From a bacterium (lineage in GTDB: Bacteria > B130-G9): DNA of 6,981 nucleotides. Shown here one piece after another: positions 1 to 6,981 of this stretch (its first letter is position 1; every line of letters begins with the position of its first letter). The DNA lies in the NCBI GenBank assembly GCA_021160245.1, contig JAGHCW010000180.1, positions 1 through 6,981 of the forward strand, in the 5' to 3' direction. The notes under the pieces were generated by a model. It saw only the letters and a list, made by a program, of their open reading frames with translations. It was not told the DNA's origin and ran no database searches. The position numbers and the translations under genes were made by a program.

Positions 1-128
1 CGGTGATGAATTGACGTGAGCGCGTCCGGTGGTTTCGTTTGGCCGTCTTGATCTCTGCCAACTATAAGTCTAACGGGATTCAATAAATGCCAAGAATAAT
101 GACAGACCAATCTGATTTTTCAGGACAT

Positions 129-158
129 TTGACAGTTCGCAGAAAGTGTGTCTATATA
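129..158 (+). promoter_or_regulatory. Candidate sigma70-type promoter of the giant gene
   Basis: A perfect -35 hexamer TTGACA (129-134) is followed after 18 bases by TATATA (153-158), which matches four of six -10 positions. TATAGT at 155-160 matches five of six but with a 20-base spacer. The surrounding 90-160 stretch is AT-richer than the rest. Transcription would start near 165, giving a leader of about 115 bases. No other promoter in the leader is better. Confidence 0.5.
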
Positions 159-160
159 GT

Positions 161-180
161 CAGCATTGGGATAATGGCTG
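161..180 (+). other. Small imperfect hairpin near the predicted transcript 5' end
   Basis: CAGCATT (161-167) pairs with AATGGCTG (173-180) around a five-base loop (168-172), with one unpaired G at 176. It starts within a few bases of the start site predicted from the candidate promoter, so it could sit at the 5' end of the mRNA as a stability element, or overlap the promoter as an operator-like site. It may also be chance. Confidence 0.25.
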
Positions 181-265
181 ATGAGCGGAAACTGCTGGCA
201 TATCGTCTCTCTTAATGCCTATTTGCCGCCCATGCAGCCCAGATAGTTTCAAACGGGATTTGCTT

Positions 266-271
266 GGGAGG
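266..271 (+). promoter_or_regulatory. Shine-Dalgarno sequence GGGAGG
   Basis: GGGAGG lies eight bases before the ATG at 280, close to ideal spacing for 16S rRNA pairing. Together with the in-frame TAG at 244-246 it fixes the start. There is no ATG, GTG or TTG in frame between that stop and 280. Confidence 0.85.
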
Positions 272-279
272 GCAAGAGG

Positions 280-348
280 ATGAGGCAGTCTGCTACCGTT
301 CTGGCGATCGTTGTCGCTCTGTTCGCGTCGGTTTTCATGGCTCAGGCG
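280..348 (+). other. Sec signal peptide coding segment (residues 1-23)
   Basis: The product begins with Met-Arg-Gln, followed by a hydrophobic core (about A5-M20, rich in Val, Leu, Ala and Phe), then A21-Q22-A23, which fits an A-x-A signal peptidase I site with cleavage before A24. There is no lipobox cysteine, so it is not a lipoprotein. The mature protein begins near the EYDVYEDGSGDF strand that opens the beta-helix. The n-region is short, with one Arg. Confidence 0.9.
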
Positions 349-3300
349 GCGGAATATGACGTCTATGAAGATGGTTCTGGCGACTTTGTCACGATTCAGG
401 ACGCGATTGACGGCGTTGATAACGGCGACACTATAATCGTCCACCCAGGGACGTTCTATGAGAACATCGACTTTGCCGGCAAGAACATTATCTTGCGTTC
501 AGAGGACCCTGAGAGTCCTACAATAGTCGGGACGACGATAATCGATGGCGGCGCGACGGATTCGGTCGTCAAGTTCCACGGGTCCGAGGATGATACTTGC
601 CTTCTATCGGGCTTCACGATTACAAACGGCGACGCGAACTTGGGCGGCGGCATTTTTGGTGGAGCCTCGGGGGCTCCCTTTTCGCAAGTCACGATCAGCC
701 ATTGCGTTATCGACGGAAACCACGCCAATAAAGGAGGCGGCGTCTATCGGACCTGGGGAGCGATCACCCATTGCACAATTAGCAACAATACTGCTGATGA
801 CGACGGTGGCGGGACAGCGGATTGTGCCGGCCCCATAACGAGCTGCACGATCAGCGGTAACTCGGCAGATGATTGTGGCGGTGGGTTGTTCTCGTGCAGT
901 GCGGAGATCCAGGACTGCACAGTCTGCGACAACTCAGCTGATGATGGCGGTGGACTCTCGTGGTGTCGCGGCGCTATAGCGGACTGCGAGATAACCGGCA
1001 ATGAGGCGAGCCGCTACGGGGGAGGGCTCTATTATTGCAGTGGCCTTATCGCGTATGCGACCGTTGCGACGAATTCGGCGCTGACTCAAGGCGGTGGTTT
1101 CTTTAACTGCGACGGGGCAATCGAGTTCTGCACAATTGATGACAACGGCTCGGCGCATGGGGCAGGGCTACGCAATTGCGATGGCGCGATCCGATCATGC
1201 CTCATCACGAACAACAGATCGACATCAAGCGCCGGAGGACTTAGCTGCTGCCAGGGTGAGATCGTGGATTGCACGATCAGTGGAAACACGGCAGCCACTG
1301 AAGGAGGCGGCTTATACGAGTGTGATGGCGAGATACGAGGCGCGACAATAACCTCCAACTCGGCGGGTACTCAGGGCGGCGGCGTGTATCAATGTGACGG
1401 CCTCATCATGTCCTGCACAATAACAGATAACTCATCCGGAGACTACGGTGGCGGATTGCGCTCGTGCCACGGGGCGATCAGCTCCTGTATCATAGCGGAC
1501 AACAGCTCCGGTACCGGCGGCGGGATGGCCTATAGCTGCGGCACGATGACCGATTGTACGGTGAGCGGCAATTCCGCGGTCTATAGTGGCGGCGGATTAT
1601 ATGATTTCTTTGGGACCATCTCCACCTGCGAGTTCACGGGCAATTCATCTGAAGAATACGGCGGCGGCCTTTCTGGATGCGACGGCCTGATCCAGTATTG
1701 CACGGTGAGCGGCAACTCGGCGGTATCAGATGGCGGTGGGTTTTACAGCTGCGACGGAACGATCTTCGCCTGCAAGATTATTGGAAACACTACTGGAGCC
1801 AATGGCGGCGGATTCTTCGCTTGCGGCGGTACCGTCTCGAATTGCGTCATAGACCAAAACTCCGCGGCCGGACAGGGCGGCGGGCTCTATAGATGCAGCG
1901 CCGCCATCTCAACCTGCGTGATCAGCAATAACTCAGCAGTCATCAATGGCGGCGGGTTGCGAGAATGCAGTGGAGCCATTTCGGTCTGCACTATCATCAG
2001 CAACACAGCCGGGGGCAGCGGCGGCGGGTTGTTCGGTTGTAACGACGCTATTACAGGCTGCGAAATCACCGGCAACACGGCCAATTTGGGTGGCGGGCTT
2101 CACAGTTGCGACGCCTTCATCAACAATTCCGTGATCAGCGGCAACTCCGCCACAGAGAGCGGCGGTGGCCTTTACTACTGCGACGGGGACATCCAAGATT
2201 GCTTTATCAACGGCAACTCGGCAGGAACACACGGCGGCGGGCTTTATATGTGTGATGCGACCATCGCATCTTGCATGATAAGCGATAACACTGCGTTCGA
2301 TCGTGGGGGCGGCGCGATATGGTGCGACGGCAAGATCTTAAATTGTCTCATAACAGGGAACACTGCAAATGGAGATGGCGGCGGGCTTGAAGTCTGCAAT
2401 GGGATTATTTCTACCTGCACGATAGCCGGCAACTCAGCGGTTAAAGCCGGCGGGATCAACAGCTGTGGCGGGACAACTTCAGACTGCATAATCTGGGGCA
2501 ACAATGCCGATACTGATGCTCAGGTTTCCGGGGGCTCAACGCCGACATATTGCTGCATCCAAGATTGGAGCGGCGGCGGCACGGGTAATATAGCCGACGA
2601 TCCATTGTTCATTACCGGAACGCACGGCGATTACTACCTCTCGGTCATCGCTGCAGGTCAAGCCGCGGATAGCCCCTGCATTGGCGCGGGCAGCACGTCG
2701 GCGGCCTCGCTGGCCCTGGACATTCGGACCACAAGAACCGACGGCGTAACTGACGCCGGCACGGTCGATTTGGGCTACCATTACTACCCCGATACGGTAG
2801 AACCTCAGAGCATCTGCAACTCCCCAAATTACGCAAAGCCACCGGTGATAACGATCACCTACAACGCGTCGGATACAGGCGGGTCCGGCCTGCGCTGGGT
2901 TGAGCTGTGGTTCAAGCTCGATGATGGAGATTGGGCGACCGCGGGATTGATATCCTGCGGTGAAAGCGGCTCATTTTCGTTCTGGGCGGATGATGAAGAG
3001 GGTCCCTACTGTTTCCAGACGGTTGCGAGCGATGTGGCCGGGAATGTCGAGGCGGGACCGTCCGGCAATGGCGACTCATGCACCAGCTTTGAGGCCATCC
3101 CGCCAGTCAGCAGTTGCACTGCGCCGACATACTCGAACTCGACAAATATCTCAGTTAGCTATACCGCGTCTGATGCCGGGGGCGCGGGCTTGGCTTCAGT
3201 CGCCCTGTGGTATAAGTTCGGCGCGACCGGTACCTGGGCCGACACAGGACTCACCGACGACCTGCAAAGCATGGACGCTGGCATCGCGGCCATCGACTTC

Positions 3301-6300
3301 CAGTTCACAGCCACAGAAGGTGAAGGAACCTACTACTTCCAGACGGTTGCTGAAGACCAAGCCGGCAACATCGAGGCAAGCCCTTTTGGGGACGGCGATG
3401 ATTCGACGCTTCTGGACGTTACTGCTCCCACGAGCGATTCTTCCTCGCCGGCCCTCTCGAACTCCACCACCATTACGGTCTCCTACGAATCGTCTGATAC
3501 TGGCGGCTCTGCCATCCAGAAAGTGGCTCTTTGGTATAAATACGGCGCAGAGGGGACCTGGGCCGACACCGGCCTCTTCGAGACCACAGAAGACGGATCG
3601 ATTGATTTTGTGGCGACATCTGGCGATGGCACATATTACTTCCAAACTGTCGCATCCGACAACGCGGGCATGAGTGAGGCGGGTGCATCCGGCGACGGTC
3701 ATACTTCGACGCTACTCGACGCAACCGCGCCTGTGAGCAGCTGCTCATCGCCCCAATACACTATATCGTCAGGAATCGCGGTCACATTCGAGGCGTCAGA
3801 TGTCGGAGGTAGTGGCATCGATAAAGTCGAATTGTGGTACAAGTTTGGTGAGGGCGGCACATGGGTGAAGTCAAACGATAATTCGAGCGAGACCAGCGGC
3901 CAGATTACCTTCAATGGCGCCTGGAACGATGGGACCTACTACTTCCAGACCGTTGCGACCGACGAAGCGGACAATGAGGAAGCTGCTGCGTCCGGAAATG
4001 GTGATACATCAACAATACGTGACGCTGTTGCGCCGTCAAGCAGCTGCACAAGCCCCCAGTATGCGAATTCTCAGCCCATCGCTATCACATTTGAGGCCAG
4101 CGACGCTCTCTCTGGCATTGCCTCGGTCGAGCTCTGGTATCAGCGCGGTGGGGGCGGCTGGATCAATAGCGGCCTTTCGGAGACTGGCACATCCGGCAGT
4201 TATGACTTCGTCCCACCGCTGGGGTATGGAACATACGAGTTCCGCACAATAGCGGCAGATGCGGCAGGCAACATAGAATCAGCGCCAAGCTCGGCTGACG
4301 ATAGCACCGTCTATGACGGCGATCCCCCCCTGTCATCCTGCACAAGCCCCGAGTTTGCAAATACGACGCCTTTCGCCGTATCATTTACCGCAAGCGACAG
4401 CCTGGCGGGAGTAAACGAGACAGCGCTTTGGTACAACTACAACAACGCGGGCTGGACCGATTCTGGCCTCACGAAGACTGGCGAATCGGGCGATTTCAAC
4501 TTCACCCCGAGCGAGGGGGACGGGACGTATAAGTTCTACACAATTGCATCGGATGACGCCGGCAACACAGAGCCCGCTCCGGCAGTGCATGATGACACCA
4601 CCACGTTTGACATGACCGCCCCAAGTTCGGGCTGCACAAGCCCGCCGTTCGCAAACGCCTCGCCAATCGTCGTAGAGTTCACCGTCGCGTATGCGGGCGC
4701 CGCCGTTACATCGACCCAGCTGTGGCGCAATTTCAATTCTCAGGGCTGGACGAACACAGGACTTAGCGAGAGCGGCGACTCTGGCAGTTTCGACTTCATC
4801 ACCACAGCGGAAGGAACATACGAGTTCTACACCATCTCAACGGACGCCGCCGGCAACGTTGAGGGTGCGCCCAGCGCCGCAGATGACAGCACCCTATATG
4901 ACACCGCGGCTCCCTCATCAGTCTGCGACTCGCCAGCCCTTACGAACTCGACAGACATAGTCATAACCTACGACTCGTCGGATACTTCTTCCGGCGTTCA
5001 ATCGGTGGGGCTCTGGGGCAAGTACGGTCAGGGCGGAATCTGGACGGACACCGGACTAACGTCGAATAACGCGACTGGCCAATTTACGTTCGCGGCGAGC
5101 CTTGGTGATGGCGAGTATTACTTCGCGACCGTTTCAGAGGACGTTGCTGGCAACACCGAGACGGCGCCATCAGGCGATGGCGATTCTTCCACACTCTTGG
5201 ACACGACTGCGCCGTGGTCATCGGCGGATTCACCGGCCAATGTTAGCGATCTCCCAATCGTGGTGACGTTCTCCTCGGGCGATTCAGGCTCGGGTCTTGC
5301 AGAGACCCAACTCTATTGCCAATTCAATGGCGGCGATTGGTCGGCATACGGCGATGCACAGACGACTGCAAATGGAAGCATCAATTTCGGCGCTCCGAAT
5401 GGCGCTGGCACATATAATTTCCATACGCGTGCGACCGATGCTGCTGGCAATGTTGAGGCCGCGCCTGCAAGCCCTGATTCGACTACAGTATATCAGCCAG
5501 TTGGGCAGCCATGCATCGGTGTAAACCCTTCGATGCTTCAATTCGGCGATGTCCTGGTTGGGCAGAGCGGTACATTGACAGTACAGGTCTCAAACACCGG
5601 CGATGAGATGCTGGAGCTGACCGTTGAGCCGGTCGTTATCTGTTCGAATGCCAACGTCGATGTCTCTATTGTCAGTCGTTCCGGTAGTTACGCGGCGGAC
5701 GCATGGGCGTCGGCGCCTCCTGGCGGCAACCTATCTCTCAGGGTGATTCTGACGCCATCGACGGCGACCAACATCGAGGGAACGATGACGATCTACTCGA
5801 ATGACCCGAACAATCCGGGGGTCGATGTGGGATTGACGGCAACGGGCTACTTGCCCGGCGGCGTGGAGATGTCGATAACATCCGATAGCGCTACCTATGG
5901 ATTTGACAATGACATTTTGATCACAGTCGGCGTTGCGAACGACGGAGCTGCAGTTGAGGCGGACATATATGTGGTGCTGGCTTATGACTTTGGCGGAGAT
6001 AGCGAACGCTTCTGGTCGCCAGTTGGTTTTGATGCCTGGACTGAGGGCGTTATGCCCTGGTTTGCGAGCTTCGAGCTGCCCAATGGCCTTGACGTAGATA
6101 CGCCAGTGTGGTCGCTTCCTGTGCCTTGCGATGTGCCGAACCTCGCATTGACAGGTAATTACACTTTGCTTGCCGTCATAGCCGAGCCGGGCTCACTCGA
6201 CTTCATCTGCGATCTCGCCTCGTCTAGCTTCTCGGTTCAGGGCAGCCCGTTCATCCAGATGGCACCGAGCGCTGGTCAATACGGCCCGGGTGACACCGTC

Positions 6301-6621
6301 AGTATCGGCCTTTACGCCGAGGTCCCCGCTTATGACGTGACCGGGGACGTCTATCTTCTGACGATGGACCCGAGCGGCACGTTCTGGACGCCTTTGGGAC
6401 CAGACTTCGGATGGATTCCGGGATTCGACCCAGTTATGCCGGCGTTCACGCTGCCGGCGGGACTCTCGTTGCCGCTCGATGGATTCTGGCAGATTCCGAT
6501 AACCGCCGATTCCGCCCCGTTCAACGCTTATGGGGGATACAACTTGTTCGCATGCGTTGTGGAATCGGGCACGCTGACGCAGTGGTGCGACATCGGAATG
6601 GGCAATTTCGTCGTAGAGTAA
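280..6621 (+). CDS. Giant secreted beta-helix / Ig-like repeat surface protein (2113 aa)
   Basis: I do not recognise this as a named gene. It encodes an exported multidomain protein, probably structural or adhesive, acting outside the cytoplasmic membrane. Residues 1-23 are a Sec signal peptide. Residues 25-838 form a right-handed parallel beta-helix: an N-cap with a GDFVTIQDAID...GDTIIVHPGTFYENI pattern, then Cys-rich 24-residue coils with GGGL and GNSA motifs like the chlamydial Pmp repeat, then a cap with DPLF, YYLS, SPCIGAGS and VDLGYHYYP. Nine Ig-like repeats (842-1743), an ASPM/SPD-2/Hydin-like domain (1744-1857) and a tandem C-terminal module (1862-2113) follow. The ATG at 280 is the only start after the in-frame TAG at 244-246, and GGGAGG lies 8 bases upstream. 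No catalytic residues, C-terminal anchor, sorting motif or autotransporter barrel are visible, so cell attachment is unexplained. An enzymatic polysaccharide lyase is possible but unsupported. The reading frame is intact across more than 6.3 kb, which argues for a functional gene. Confidence 0.95.
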   Translation: MRQSATVLAIVVALFASVFMAQAAEYDVYEDGSGDFVTIQDAIDGVDNGDTIIVHPGTFYENIDFAGKNIILRSEDPESPTIVGTTIIDGGATDSVVKFHGSEDDTCLLSGFTITNGDANLGGGIFGGASGAPFSQVTISHCVIDGNHANKGGGVYRTWGAITHCTISNNTADDDGGGTADCAGPITSCTISGNSADDCGGGLFSCSAEIQDCTVCDNSADDGGGLSWCRGAIADCEITGNEASRYGGGLYYCSGLIAYATVATNSALTQGGGFFNCDGAIEFCTIDDNGSAHGAGLRNCDGAIRSCLITNNRSTSSAGGLSCCQGEIVDCTISGNTAATEGGGLYECDGEIRGATITSNSAGTQGGGVYQCDGLIMSCTITDNSSGDYGGGLRSCHGAISSCIIADNSSGTGGGMAYSCGTMTDCTVSGNSAVYSGGGLYDFFGTISTCEFTGNSSEEYGGGLSGCDGLIQYCTVSGNSAVSDGGGFYSCDGTIFACKIIGNTTGANGGGFFACGGTVSNCVIDQNSAAGQGGGLYRCSAAISTCVISNNSAVINGGGLRECSGAISVCTIISNTAGGSGGGLFGCNDAITGCEITGNTANLGGGLHSCDAFINNSVISGNSATESGGGLYYCDGDIQDCFINGNSAGTHGGGLYMCDATIASCMISDNTAFDRGGGAIWCDGKILNCLITGNTANGDGGGLEVCNGIISTCTIAGNSAVKAGGINSCGGTTSDCIIWGNNADTDAQVSGGSTPTYCCIQDWSGGGTGNIADDPLFITGTHGDYYLSVIAAGQAADSPCIGAGSTSAASLALDIRTTRTDGVTDAGTVDLGYHYYPDTVEPQSICNSPNYAKPPVITITYNASDTGGSGLRWVELWFKLDDGDWATAGLISCGESGSFSFWADDEEGPYCFQTVASDVAGNVEAGPSGNGDSCTSFEAIPPVSSCTAPTYSNSTNISVSYTASDAGGAGLASVALWYKFGATGTWADTGLTDDLQSMDAGIAAIDFQFTATEGEGTYYFQTVAEDQAGNIEASPFGDGDDSTLLDVTAPTSDSSSPALSNSTTITVSYESSDTGGSAIQKVALWYKYGAEGTWADTGLFETTEDGSIDFVATSGDGTYYFQTVASDNAGMSEAGASGDGHTSTLLDATAPVSSCSSPQYTISSGIAVTFEASDVGGSGIDKVELWYKFGEGGTWVKSNDNSSETSGQITFNGAWNDGTYYFQTVATDEADNEEAAASGNGDTSTIRDAVAPSSSCTSPQYANSQPIAITFEASDALSGIASVELWYQRGGGGWINSGLSETGTSGSYDFVPPLGYGTYEFRTIAADAAGNIESAPSSADDSTVYDGDPPLSSCTSPEFANTTPFAVSFTASDSLAGVNETALWYNYNNAGWTDSGLTKTGESGDFNFTPSEGDGTYKFYTIASDDAGNTEPAPAVHDDTTTFDMTAPSSGCTSPPFANASPIVVEFTVAYAGAAVTSTQLWRNFNSQGWTNTGLSESGDSGSFDFITTAEGTYEFYTISTDAAGNVEGAPSAADDSTLYDTAAPSSVCDSPALTNSTDIVITYDSSDTSSGVQSVGLWGKYGQGGIWTDTGLTSNNATGQFTFAASLGDGEYYFATVSEDVAGNTETAPSGDGDSSTLLDTTAPWSSADSPANVSDLPIVVTFSSGDSGSGLAETQLYCQFNGGDWSAYGDAQTTANGSINFGAPNGAGTYNFHTRATDAAGNVEAAPASPDSTTVYQPVGQPCIGVNPSMLQFGDVLVGQSGTLTVQVSNTGDEMLELTVEPVVICSNANVDVSIVSRSGSYAADAWASAPPGGNLSLRVILTPSTATNIEGTMTIYSNDPNNPGVDVGLTATGYLPGGVEMSITSDSATYGFDNDILITVGVANDGAAVEADIYVVLAYDFGGDSERFWSPVGFDAWTEGVMPWFASFELPNGLDVDTPVWSLPVPCDVPNLALTGNYTLLAVIAEPGSLDFICDLASSSFSVQGSPFIQMAPSAGQYGPGDTVSIGLYAEVPAYDVTGDVYLLTMDPSGTFWTPLGPDFGWIPGFDPVMPAFTLPAGLSLPLDGFWQIPITADSAPFNAYGGYNLFACVVESGTLTQWCDIGMGNFVVE
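352..600 (+). other. Beta-helix N-terminal cap (residues 25-107)
   Basis: This segment carries the familiar opening of secreted parallel beta-helix proteins. A short strand (YDVYEDGSGDF) leads to an amphipathic TIQDAIDGVDNGDTIIV segment, then a PGTFYENI motif and irregular coils (KNIILRSEDPE, TIVGTTIIDGG). Pectinesterase, pectate lyase and DUF1565-type proteins begin in the same way, with a helix capping the first coil. The regular cysteine pattern starts only after this section. C107 is the only Cys here. Confidence 0.8.
697..2478 (+). repeat. 25 tandem beta-helix coil repeats, about 72 bp each, Cys-rich
   Basis: Residues 140-733 are 25 head-to-tail coils with consensus x-x-C-x-I-x-x-N-S/T-A, a loop, GGGL/F, x-x-C-D/S-G-x-I. 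Nineteen coils are 24 residues and six are 23 (the 2nd, 5th, 8th, 13th, 21st and 26th, counting the irregular coil at 108-139 as the 1st). The one-residue loss falls in the loop before GGG. The total of 594 residues matches this count exactly. The N-x-A...GGG motif resembles the chlamydial Pmp repeat, and the arrangement predicts a long right-handed solenoid with an Asn ladder and a Gly-rich turn. Codons differ strongly between copies, so the array is old at DNA level although the protein pattern is strict. This is a coding repeat, not a CRISPR array or satellite. Confidence 0.93.
2503..2793 (+). other. Beta-helix C-terminal cap (residues 742-838)
   Basis: The regular coils stop after the CIIWGN coil (C736-N741). 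A recognisable closing module follows: YCCIQDWSGGGTGNI, then DDPLF, GDYYLS, a SPCIGAGS turn and a VDLGYHYYP end at about residue 837. This combination recurs as the end of many secreted right-handed beta-helix proteins of environmental bacteria, where it closes the solenoid. It contains a CC pair and the Cys of SPCIG. Confidence 0.8.
2803..5508 (+). repeat. Nine tandem Ig-like repeats, about 97-108 aa each
   Basis: Repeats begin at P842, P942, P1050, P1151, P1252, P1350, P1448, P1545 and P1645, giving lengths of 100, 108, 101, 101, 98, 98, 97, 100 and 99 residues. Each follows the order APxSSCTSP, a strand with IxVxFxASD, SG, LWYK, W-x-x-TGL, GTYxFxTxAxDxAGN, then E-x-x-P, DDST and D. The Asp-rich ASD and AGN turns and the beta-sandwich spacing resemble bacterial Ig-like and OmpL47-type extracellular repeats. 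Two subfamilies are visible: A (repeats 1-4 and 8, GTYYFQTVA type) and B (repeats 5-7, GTYEFxTI type), with repeat 9 mixed. Repeat 2 has about eight extra residues near DLQSMDAG. Repeat 7 has lost the ASD motif (it reads TVAYAGAAV). They probably form a stalk; ligand binding is not shown. Confidence 0.9.
5509..5850 (+). other. ASPM/SPD-2/Hydin-like beta-sandwich domain (residues 1744-1857)
   Basis: The segment opens with a CIGVNPSMLQFGDVLVGQSG strand and turn, followed by LTVQVSNTGDE, then LRVILTPSTA and a closing TIYSNDPNNPGVDVGLTATG. This is the usual pattern of the ASPM/SPD-2/Hydin and choice-of-anchor D families: P-x-x-x-x-FG-x-V-x-VG, SNTG, F/L-x-P, IYSNDP and L-x-G. In bacteria these domains occur in large exported proteins as structural modules. 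It appears once, between the Ig-like stalk and the C-terminal pair. Confidence 0.8.
5863..6618 (+). repeat. Two tandem copies of an unnamed C-terminal module, about 126 aa each
   Basis: Residues 1862-1987 and 1988-2113 align along their length. The matched stations are YGFDND / YGPGDT, then DIYVVLAYD / DVYLLTMDP, FWSPVG / FWTPLG, the hydrophobic GVMPWFASFELP / DPVMPAFTLP, NYTLLAVIAEPGSLDFICD / GYNLFACVVESGTLTQWCD, and a final FSV / FVV strand. C1977 and C2103 are equivalent and exactly 126 residues apart. I know similar GxYxxxAxxxxPGxLxxIxD modules as C-terminal ends of giant exported proteins, but cannot give a family name. The protein ends seven residues after the second copy's CDIG motif, with no transmembrane tail. 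The copies could act as a cell-envelope attachment or sorting module; that is inference. Confidence 0.8.
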
Positions 6622-6700
6622 ATGAGCACTGGGTTCAGGATGGCACGTAGGATTCTGATCCGGAGTCTCGTGCGCACAGAACCTGTAAGATAAGGACTTT

Positions 6701-6730
6701 GCCTCGCCATTCTAGACAGGATGGCGAGGC
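6701..6730 (+). terminator. Strong GC-rich hairpin after the gene, terminator-like but without a U-tract
   Basis: GCCTCGCCAT (6701-6710) and ATGGCGAGGC (6721-6730) are perfect inverted repeats of 10 bases. The stem extends inward through a T-G wobble, C-G and T-A pair to a four-base AGAC loop (6714-6717), giving 13 pairs. It begins 79 bases after the TAA. No T-run follows on either strand, so it is not a classical intrinsic terminator. It could be a U-tract-less terminator, a 3'-end stabiliser after Rho-dependent termination, or an unrelated inverted repeat. Confidence 0.55.
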
Positions 6731-6869
6731 GTCGGACCGAGGTTGCGCTGCAAGCGAGATCGTCAGCCGGTTGCATCTATCGAACGCCTCACAAGAATAA
6801 CTCACCATTACGGTTCTCGCCGTCAATCTAATTATTGCGGCGGCTGGGGTGTGACCTTGGATTGTAGGG

Positions 6870-6883
6870 AACTTGGCCAAGTT
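6870..6883. repeat. Perfect 14-bp palindrome AACTTGGCCAAGTT
   Basis: The sequence equals its own reverse complement over 14 bases and stops abruptly on both sides. Such a dyad in non-coding DNA has the form of a dimeric regulator operator, but no promoter can be placed next to it with confidence and no regulated gene lies in the window. Its function is unassigned. Confidence 0.4.
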
Positions 6884-6947
6884 ATTGCGCATGCGACCGA
6901 GGAACGGCCAGGTTGGAGAGCTCTTTACTCTGAATCACCGTATTTTA

Positions 6948-6981
6948 GAGGCTGTCCAATAAGTCGGGAGTAGGCGGAGAA
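6948..6981 (+). mobile_element. Possible left terminal inverted repeat of an insertion sequence (cut by window edge)
   Basis: GAGGCTGTCCAATAAGTC (6948-6965) resembles the GAGGCTGTC...AAAAGTC ends that I recall for several insertion-sequence groups, for example IS1182- or IS5-like elements. The element would extend rightward beyond the window. No transposase codons or second end are visible, so this is a resemblance only. The AT-rich TATTTTA just before it could be target sequence. Confidence 0.3.

Follow-up and report, generated by a model that had tools for sequence, protein, structure and literature searches.

We identified two columns of cysteines in a predicted right-handed beta-helix encoded by the window, the stretch of 6,981 nucleotides of DNA that we analysed. 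These columns are probably two buried stacks of free thiols, which stand in for the Asn and Ser ladders inside what would be a fibrillar surface protein of an apparent anaerobe. The window (positions 1 to 6981) is an entire contig and the gene has no further genomic context. It contains one dominant open reading frame (ORF), of 2113 aa on the + strand, with a probable signal peptide at its start, as expected from the preliminary description of this DNA, which had called the protein exported. The features are:

280..6621, + strand: single ORF with signal peptide, beta-helix, Ig-like array, ASH/choice-of-anchor D domain and tandem tail domain (ORF call and domain scans)
280..348, + strand: probable Sec signal peptide MRQSATVLAIVVALFASVFMAQA, suggested by a positively charged start, a hydrophobic core and an A-x-A end
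352..642, + strand: N-terminal beta-helix cap, beginning VYEDGSGDFVTIQDAID, with a pectinesterase/DUF1565-like start, conserved in paralogues
643..2565, + strand: right-handed beta-helix, 26 coils of 23-24 residues (Pfam Beta_helix and Chlam_PMP, AlphaFold2 model, structural matches)
703..2487, + strand: Cys column 1 (Asn-5), 23/26 coils, C142 to C736
823..2466, + strand: Cys column 2 (Asn-12), 22/26 coils, C182 to C729, plus the displaced C420
718..2502, + strand: Asn column (position 0), 26/26 coils, N147 to N741, a conventional Asn ladder
2797..5484, + strand: about nine Ig-like domains of Big_13 / OmpL47 type, ~98 aa each (Pfam/NCBIfam)
5509..5817, + strand: ASH / choice-of-anchor D domain, scoring just below the curated cut-offs
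5851..6618, + strand: C-terminal tandem domain with no family assigned, common to many proteins of the genome (genome matches)

From this architecture we infer that the product is a secreted, fibrillar surface protein, which would be located at the cell surface and act in adhesion.

Coil register and predicted fold

The Asn in the motif I-x-x-C-x-I-x-x-N-x-A served as the anchor of each coil, and we numbered the columns relative to it. This revealed 26 consecutive anchors between aa 147 and 741, spaced by 23-24 residues. The anchor itself is invariant and makes a conventional ladder, hence the Cys columns are additional to an Asn ladder. The exceptions to Cys are A260, A355 and S617 at Asn-5, and S135, T158, S419 and F443 at Asn-12. 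In the coil of S419 the Cys is displaced by one residue (C420), and counting it brings both columns to the 23 cysteines of the preliminary hand count, the strict count at Asn-12 being 22. Together, the columns include 45 of the 51 Cys found between aa 122 and 762. Both Cys are present in 20 of the 26 coils, 19 times in strict register and once by way of C420. The accumulation of Cys at these two positions, earlier written as x-x-C-x-I (Asn-5) and x-x-C-D-G (Asn-12), is far beyond chance (hypergeometric p ~2e-23 and ~6e-20; the test used 31 anchors, including five spurious double calls, which makes the p values approximate and, if anything, too mild). Two details of the preliminary description have to be changed. 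It had placed 25 coils at 697-2478; the beta-helix repeat stands, but there are 26 coils and the last Cys of the Asn-5 column (aa 736) ends at nucleotide 2487. It had also linked the columns from coil to coil by a C-x6-C step, but this spacing is internal to a single 24-residue coil, the spacing from one coil to the following one being C-x16-C.

The ORF scores well above the curated cut-offs for families of right-handed parallel beta-helices: 48.4-56.9 bits for Pfam Beta_helix (PF13229, cut-off 25.9) and 37.5-76.3 bits for the Chlam_PMP repeat (PF02415, cut-off 20.6; E 4e-22 for the beta-helix region). An AlphaFold2 model of residues 21-867, computed from an alignment of only 30 rows (30 loci), is a continuous beta-helix with a mean pLDDT of 82.5 and a pTM of 0.69, the confidence going down to 55-70 across approximately residues 530-640 of the model. 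In each modelled coil, short strands occupy -15/-14, -8/-7, -4 to -2 and +1/+2. Asn-5 takes the second place in a corner of two residues, just as the Asn column does in the corner that follows, and Asn-12 sits just past the -15/-14 strand, in the turn preceding the next strand. With VIA-align, beta-helix lyases, epimerases and tailspikes matched at Z 19-24, chiefly over model residues 1-410. Matches found by Foldseek had weak TM-scores, which are common for long solenoids. Among solved structures, a sequence search with the beta-helix returned nothing at E 1, and a profile search returned weak matches only (E 0.0004-0.014), mostly of the pectinesterase/xylosidase-like cap, and one to a tail spike.

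We then asked which residues face inward. For each column, and across all proteins, we counted how often successive coils have the same residue and compared this with shuffles within the protein. Neighbours were alike in excess, by 2.2 to 5.7 SD, at -16, -15, -12, -10, -8, -5, -3 and +2 (also at -11 and +3), column -16 being less reliable on account of register shifts nearby. The values were within 1.8 SD of zero, with either sign, at -14, -13, -9, -7, -6, -4, -2, -1, +1, +4 and +5. Recent coil duplication would have raised all columns alike. Hence, the alternating excess supports the stacking of both Cys columns in the core. The predicted burial draws on these column statistics and on the DSSP string, which support an inward orientation of both. 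The AlphaFold2 model and the neighbour statistics thus agree in favouring the beta-helix with two stacked inward columns that had been proposed at the outset.

Exchange of ladder residues among paralogues and relatives

Proteins related to the ORF product are very numerous in the genome that contains the window (G000), with 157 matching stretches, and each of three further genomes from the same bacterial family encodes many or some. Some of the beta-helix/Ig-like paralogues of G000 carry in-frame stops (C136, C94, C46, C52, C154), which suggests gene decay or turnover. We collected coils from 61 non-redundant reading frames with a motif that was blind to Cys at both columns. At Asn-5, the 200 coils of own-genome paralogues have Cys in 48% and Asn in 45% of the cases, and the 323 coils of relatives elsewhere have Cys in 66%, Asn in 18% and Val in 5%. 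For the most part, each protein keeps to one of these residues. For example, of the 33 coils of L020, 32 have Asn and one has Cys, and L068 has Asn in 21/21, while L014, L059 and L062 have Cys throughout. Among the 42 proteins with at least five C/N coils, 23 have at least 90% Cys and six have less than 10%. Proteins with both residues show them in blocks (65 like neighbours vs 52.2 +- 3.3 expected). In the Asn-12 column, Cys exchanges with Ser. Judged from these sequences, the Asn-5 column is an ordinary ladder position, at which the residue is swapped mostly by whole protein. Freely substituted Cys columns in homologues had been named beforehand as the result that would speak against a ladder. 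Substitution does occur, but it keeps an order: Cys is exchanged with Asn or Val in one column and with Ser in the other, mostly in whole proteins or blocks. Val at Asn-5 was observed in relatives from one genome (G004), in all coils of L034 and most of L042, and makes an aliphatic stack at the ladder position.

A second lineage, from another phylum (G027, G031 and G032), shows the same choice of Cys or Asn at Asn-5, and has mostly Ser, Ala, Gly or other residues at Asn-12. In four plasmid-borne relatives, Asn-5 is mostly Ser (the cyanobacteria Nostoc and Synechocystis), mixed with Ser as the commonest residue (Diaphorobacter), or Ser, Cys and Thr among others (Abditibacteriota), and none of the four has Cys at Asn-12. 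Among bacterial and archaeal genomes, one scan turned up just one distant relative, from a Cloacimonadota MAG, and a search of viral contigs found none. Within the relatives searched, the doubled Cys ladder was seen only in the window's own family. These proteins provide a natural experiment in solenoid architecture, since dozens of homologous beta-helices of one bacterial family differ at this one position in having Asn, Cys, Ser or Val. As the residue is chosen mostly protein by protein, one can ask what purpose a ladder residue serves.

Redox setting and state of the thiols

The preliminary description had suggested looking for disulfide-forming enzymes in the genome. We found no match to DsbA, DsbB or VKOR in the four genomes of the family (G000-G003); control genomes did give matches. 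The genome is 95% complete, which leaves room for an unknown oxidase or a missing gene. Among respiratory oxidases the search covered the haem-copper type (COX1), which was also lacking in these four genomes and present in the controls, as would fit an anaerobe. The only Thioredoxin_4 match in G000 is an exported protein in which CPHS replaces CxxC. The organism thus appears to be an anaerobe without known disulfide machinery, and oxidation by small molecules outside the cell is possible. One genome of the second lineage, G027, where the Cys column is at Asn-5 only, has DsbA-like proteins. Hence, a single Cys column does not depend on a lack of Dsb. We also made a crude survey of 20 genome stretches (~350 kb, a sample of the genome), in which Cys makes up 1.54% of exported and 1.59% of cytoplasmic proteins; the exported set is small (27 proteins) and defined by a crude signal-peptide rule. 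Cys counts were odd in 16 exported proteins and even in nine, with no bias for even numbers. Such a bias is the mark of organisms that fold proteins oxidatively, and obligate anaerobes tend to keep Cys out of exported proteins (PMC12453122). The present lineage is therefore unusual in its Cys-rich exported proteins. It is important to highlight that regular Cys in an exported protein of an apparent anaerobe without known disulfide machinery should not be equated with disulfides. The exported protein with the Thioredoxin_4 match mentioned above, L123 (G000:C98:6000-10000, 806 aa), has a thioredoxin-fold part with CPHS (CxxS), a feature kept within the family (CPYS in G001), and an N-terminal part that we take to be 5'-nucleotidase-like, as recognised by eye.

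Our preferred explanation is that the beta-helix forms an N-terminal rod carried on a stalk of Ig-like domains. At its inward corners, a coil would normally carry Asn or Ser, whose hydrogen bonds to the backbone of adjacent coils keep the turns in place. Conversion of two such positions to Cys in this lineage would have produced two thiol stacks, parallel to each other and each with 22-23 buried and reduced members, while the Asn ladder next to them stayed intact. As small, buried, weakly polar residues, these thiols may take part in packing and in weak hydrogen bonds donated to the backbone, and thereby stabilise the solenoid. The swap to Cys would be tolerated because the organism appears to be anaerobic and to lack disulfide-forming enzymes. 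We infer the reduced state of the thiols and their hydrogen bonding. Among the three options of the preliminary description (serial disulfides, a buried thiol stack or metal binding), the thiol stack is the one favoured by the columns, the fold prediction, the exchange of residues and the lack of Dsb and VKOR.

A very rigid rod could also arise if disulfides linked C-12 and C-5 inside every coil, or joined each coil in series to the one after it. The protein is exported, the two Cys of a coil are seven residues apart, most coils have both, and in the unfiltered data the Cys of Asn-12 and Asn-5 co-occur in slight excess (149 coils vs 138.6 +- 3.1 expected). This coupling seemed significant in the raw data, but vanished once degraded coils were removed (129 vs 127.8 +- 2.1 in well-formed coils). 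Within the latter, C-12 is missing from 114 of the 243 coils with C-5, and C-5 from 28 of the 157 with C-12, such that one Cys is often without its partner, and Cys at -5 runs through proteins that have Ser at -12 (e.g. L069, L048). The Asn-5 Cys of the ORF occur in runs of 5, 3, 10 and 5, which would leave odd thiols in serial pairs; the runs are too few for their parity to decide. With no DsbA, DsbB or VKOR in the family's genomes, disulfides, serial or internal, are unlikely. In the antifreeze protein of Tenebrio molitor, by comparison, Cys are in register in every coil and internal disulfides staple small coils of 12 residues. The coils described here differ in having 24 residues and two Cys that are uncoupled, with no joint gain or loss.

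Another explanation holds that the columns bind soft metal ions (Cu(I), Zn, Fe) in line or conduct electrons. Adjacent rungs are ~4.8 A apart in any beta-helix, and continuous thiol columns on them could reach bridging distance. Scores of 11 of the 30 aligned relatives on Pfam NosD, a copper-maturation beta-helix, pointed the same way; we set this link aside, since what NosD and these proteins have in common is most probably the general beta-helix repeat. The exchange of Asn-5 with Asn and Val, and of Asn-12 with Ser, would break metal sites, and no neighbouring metal genes are visible in the window, which is the whole contig. Metal binding gained no positive evidence in our analysis, and a metal or redox wire is highly improbable. 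We attach equally little credence to a chemical action of the thiol columns, either as a line of soft metal ions or as a reversible redox zipper that stiffens the rod on contact with oxygen. It may finally be that Cys merely drifted, at no cost, into buried positions for small residues, where it would fill space without stabilising the fold further. The equal Cys content of exported and cytoplasmic proteins would fit, as would an exchange between lone Cys and Ser that is seen in the Ig-like domains too. However, Cys takes up 85-88% of the coils in the two columns and is rare at the other inward columns, and the clustering of Cys and Asn in blocks indicates selection specific to the ladder. We thus regard composition drift as very unlikely.

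Comparison with known systems

The title of Bublitz et al. (2008, J Mol Biol 378:87) attributes a 'novel cysteine ladder' to the leucine-rich repeat (LRR) domain of InlJ. It is a solenoid in which stacked repeats align their Cys, as here, although InlJ is an LRR horseshoe rather than a beta-helix and has one Cys ladder, not two. The LRR consensus has a position that is either N or C (LxxLxLxxNxL or LxxLxLxxCxxL; PMC9525666), which parallels the C/N exchange that we observed. A ladder of five Cys was described in the N-terminal beta-helix of the fucoidan lyase FdlA, where the authors called it 'unusual' and interpreted it as structural (PMC9410043). Like the present protein, FdlA has a right-handed beta-helix; its Cys are stacked inside, at the juncture of turn and strand. 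FdlA differs in being an enzyme with five Cys in one column, instead of 22-23 in each of two. Cys ladders are thus already known from InlJ and FdlA, and the present one, with Cys at fixed inward positions of successive coils (23/26 and 22/26), is a longer, doubled variant.

Chlamydial Pmp proteins share with the ORF the GG(G/A)-I/L and x-x-N motifs, the Asn column and the membership of a large paralogous family of exported beta-helices. Each has 8-12 conserved Cys, with no Cys columns reported (PMC4488443). Pfam and NCBIfam scans of the whole ORF recognised no autotransporter barrel family, for which reason we did not file it as a Pmp; it has an Ig-like stalk instead. Fibrillar adhesins (PMC9210967) resemble it in length, in the stalk of repeated domains, here the Big_13 / OmpL47 array of tandem Ig-like domains, and in the distal N-terminal domain. 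The same scans recognised neither a known adhesive domain nor a cell-surface anchor in the ORF, which may have domains of a new type for these roles.

Two observations concern the remainder of the protein. A lone Cys, in P-x-S-S-C-x-S-P or near variants, occurs in Ig-like domains at aa 846, 946, 1155, 1256, 1354, 1452 and 1549, and is replaced by other residues in the remaining ones. Where it is the sole Cys of its domain, an intradomain disulfide is impossible. The C-terminal tandem domain has ~128 aa per copy and 26 matches in the genome; the matches are found at C-termini and, in other beta-helix proteins, in the N-terminal part as well (e.g. C231:18138-18506).
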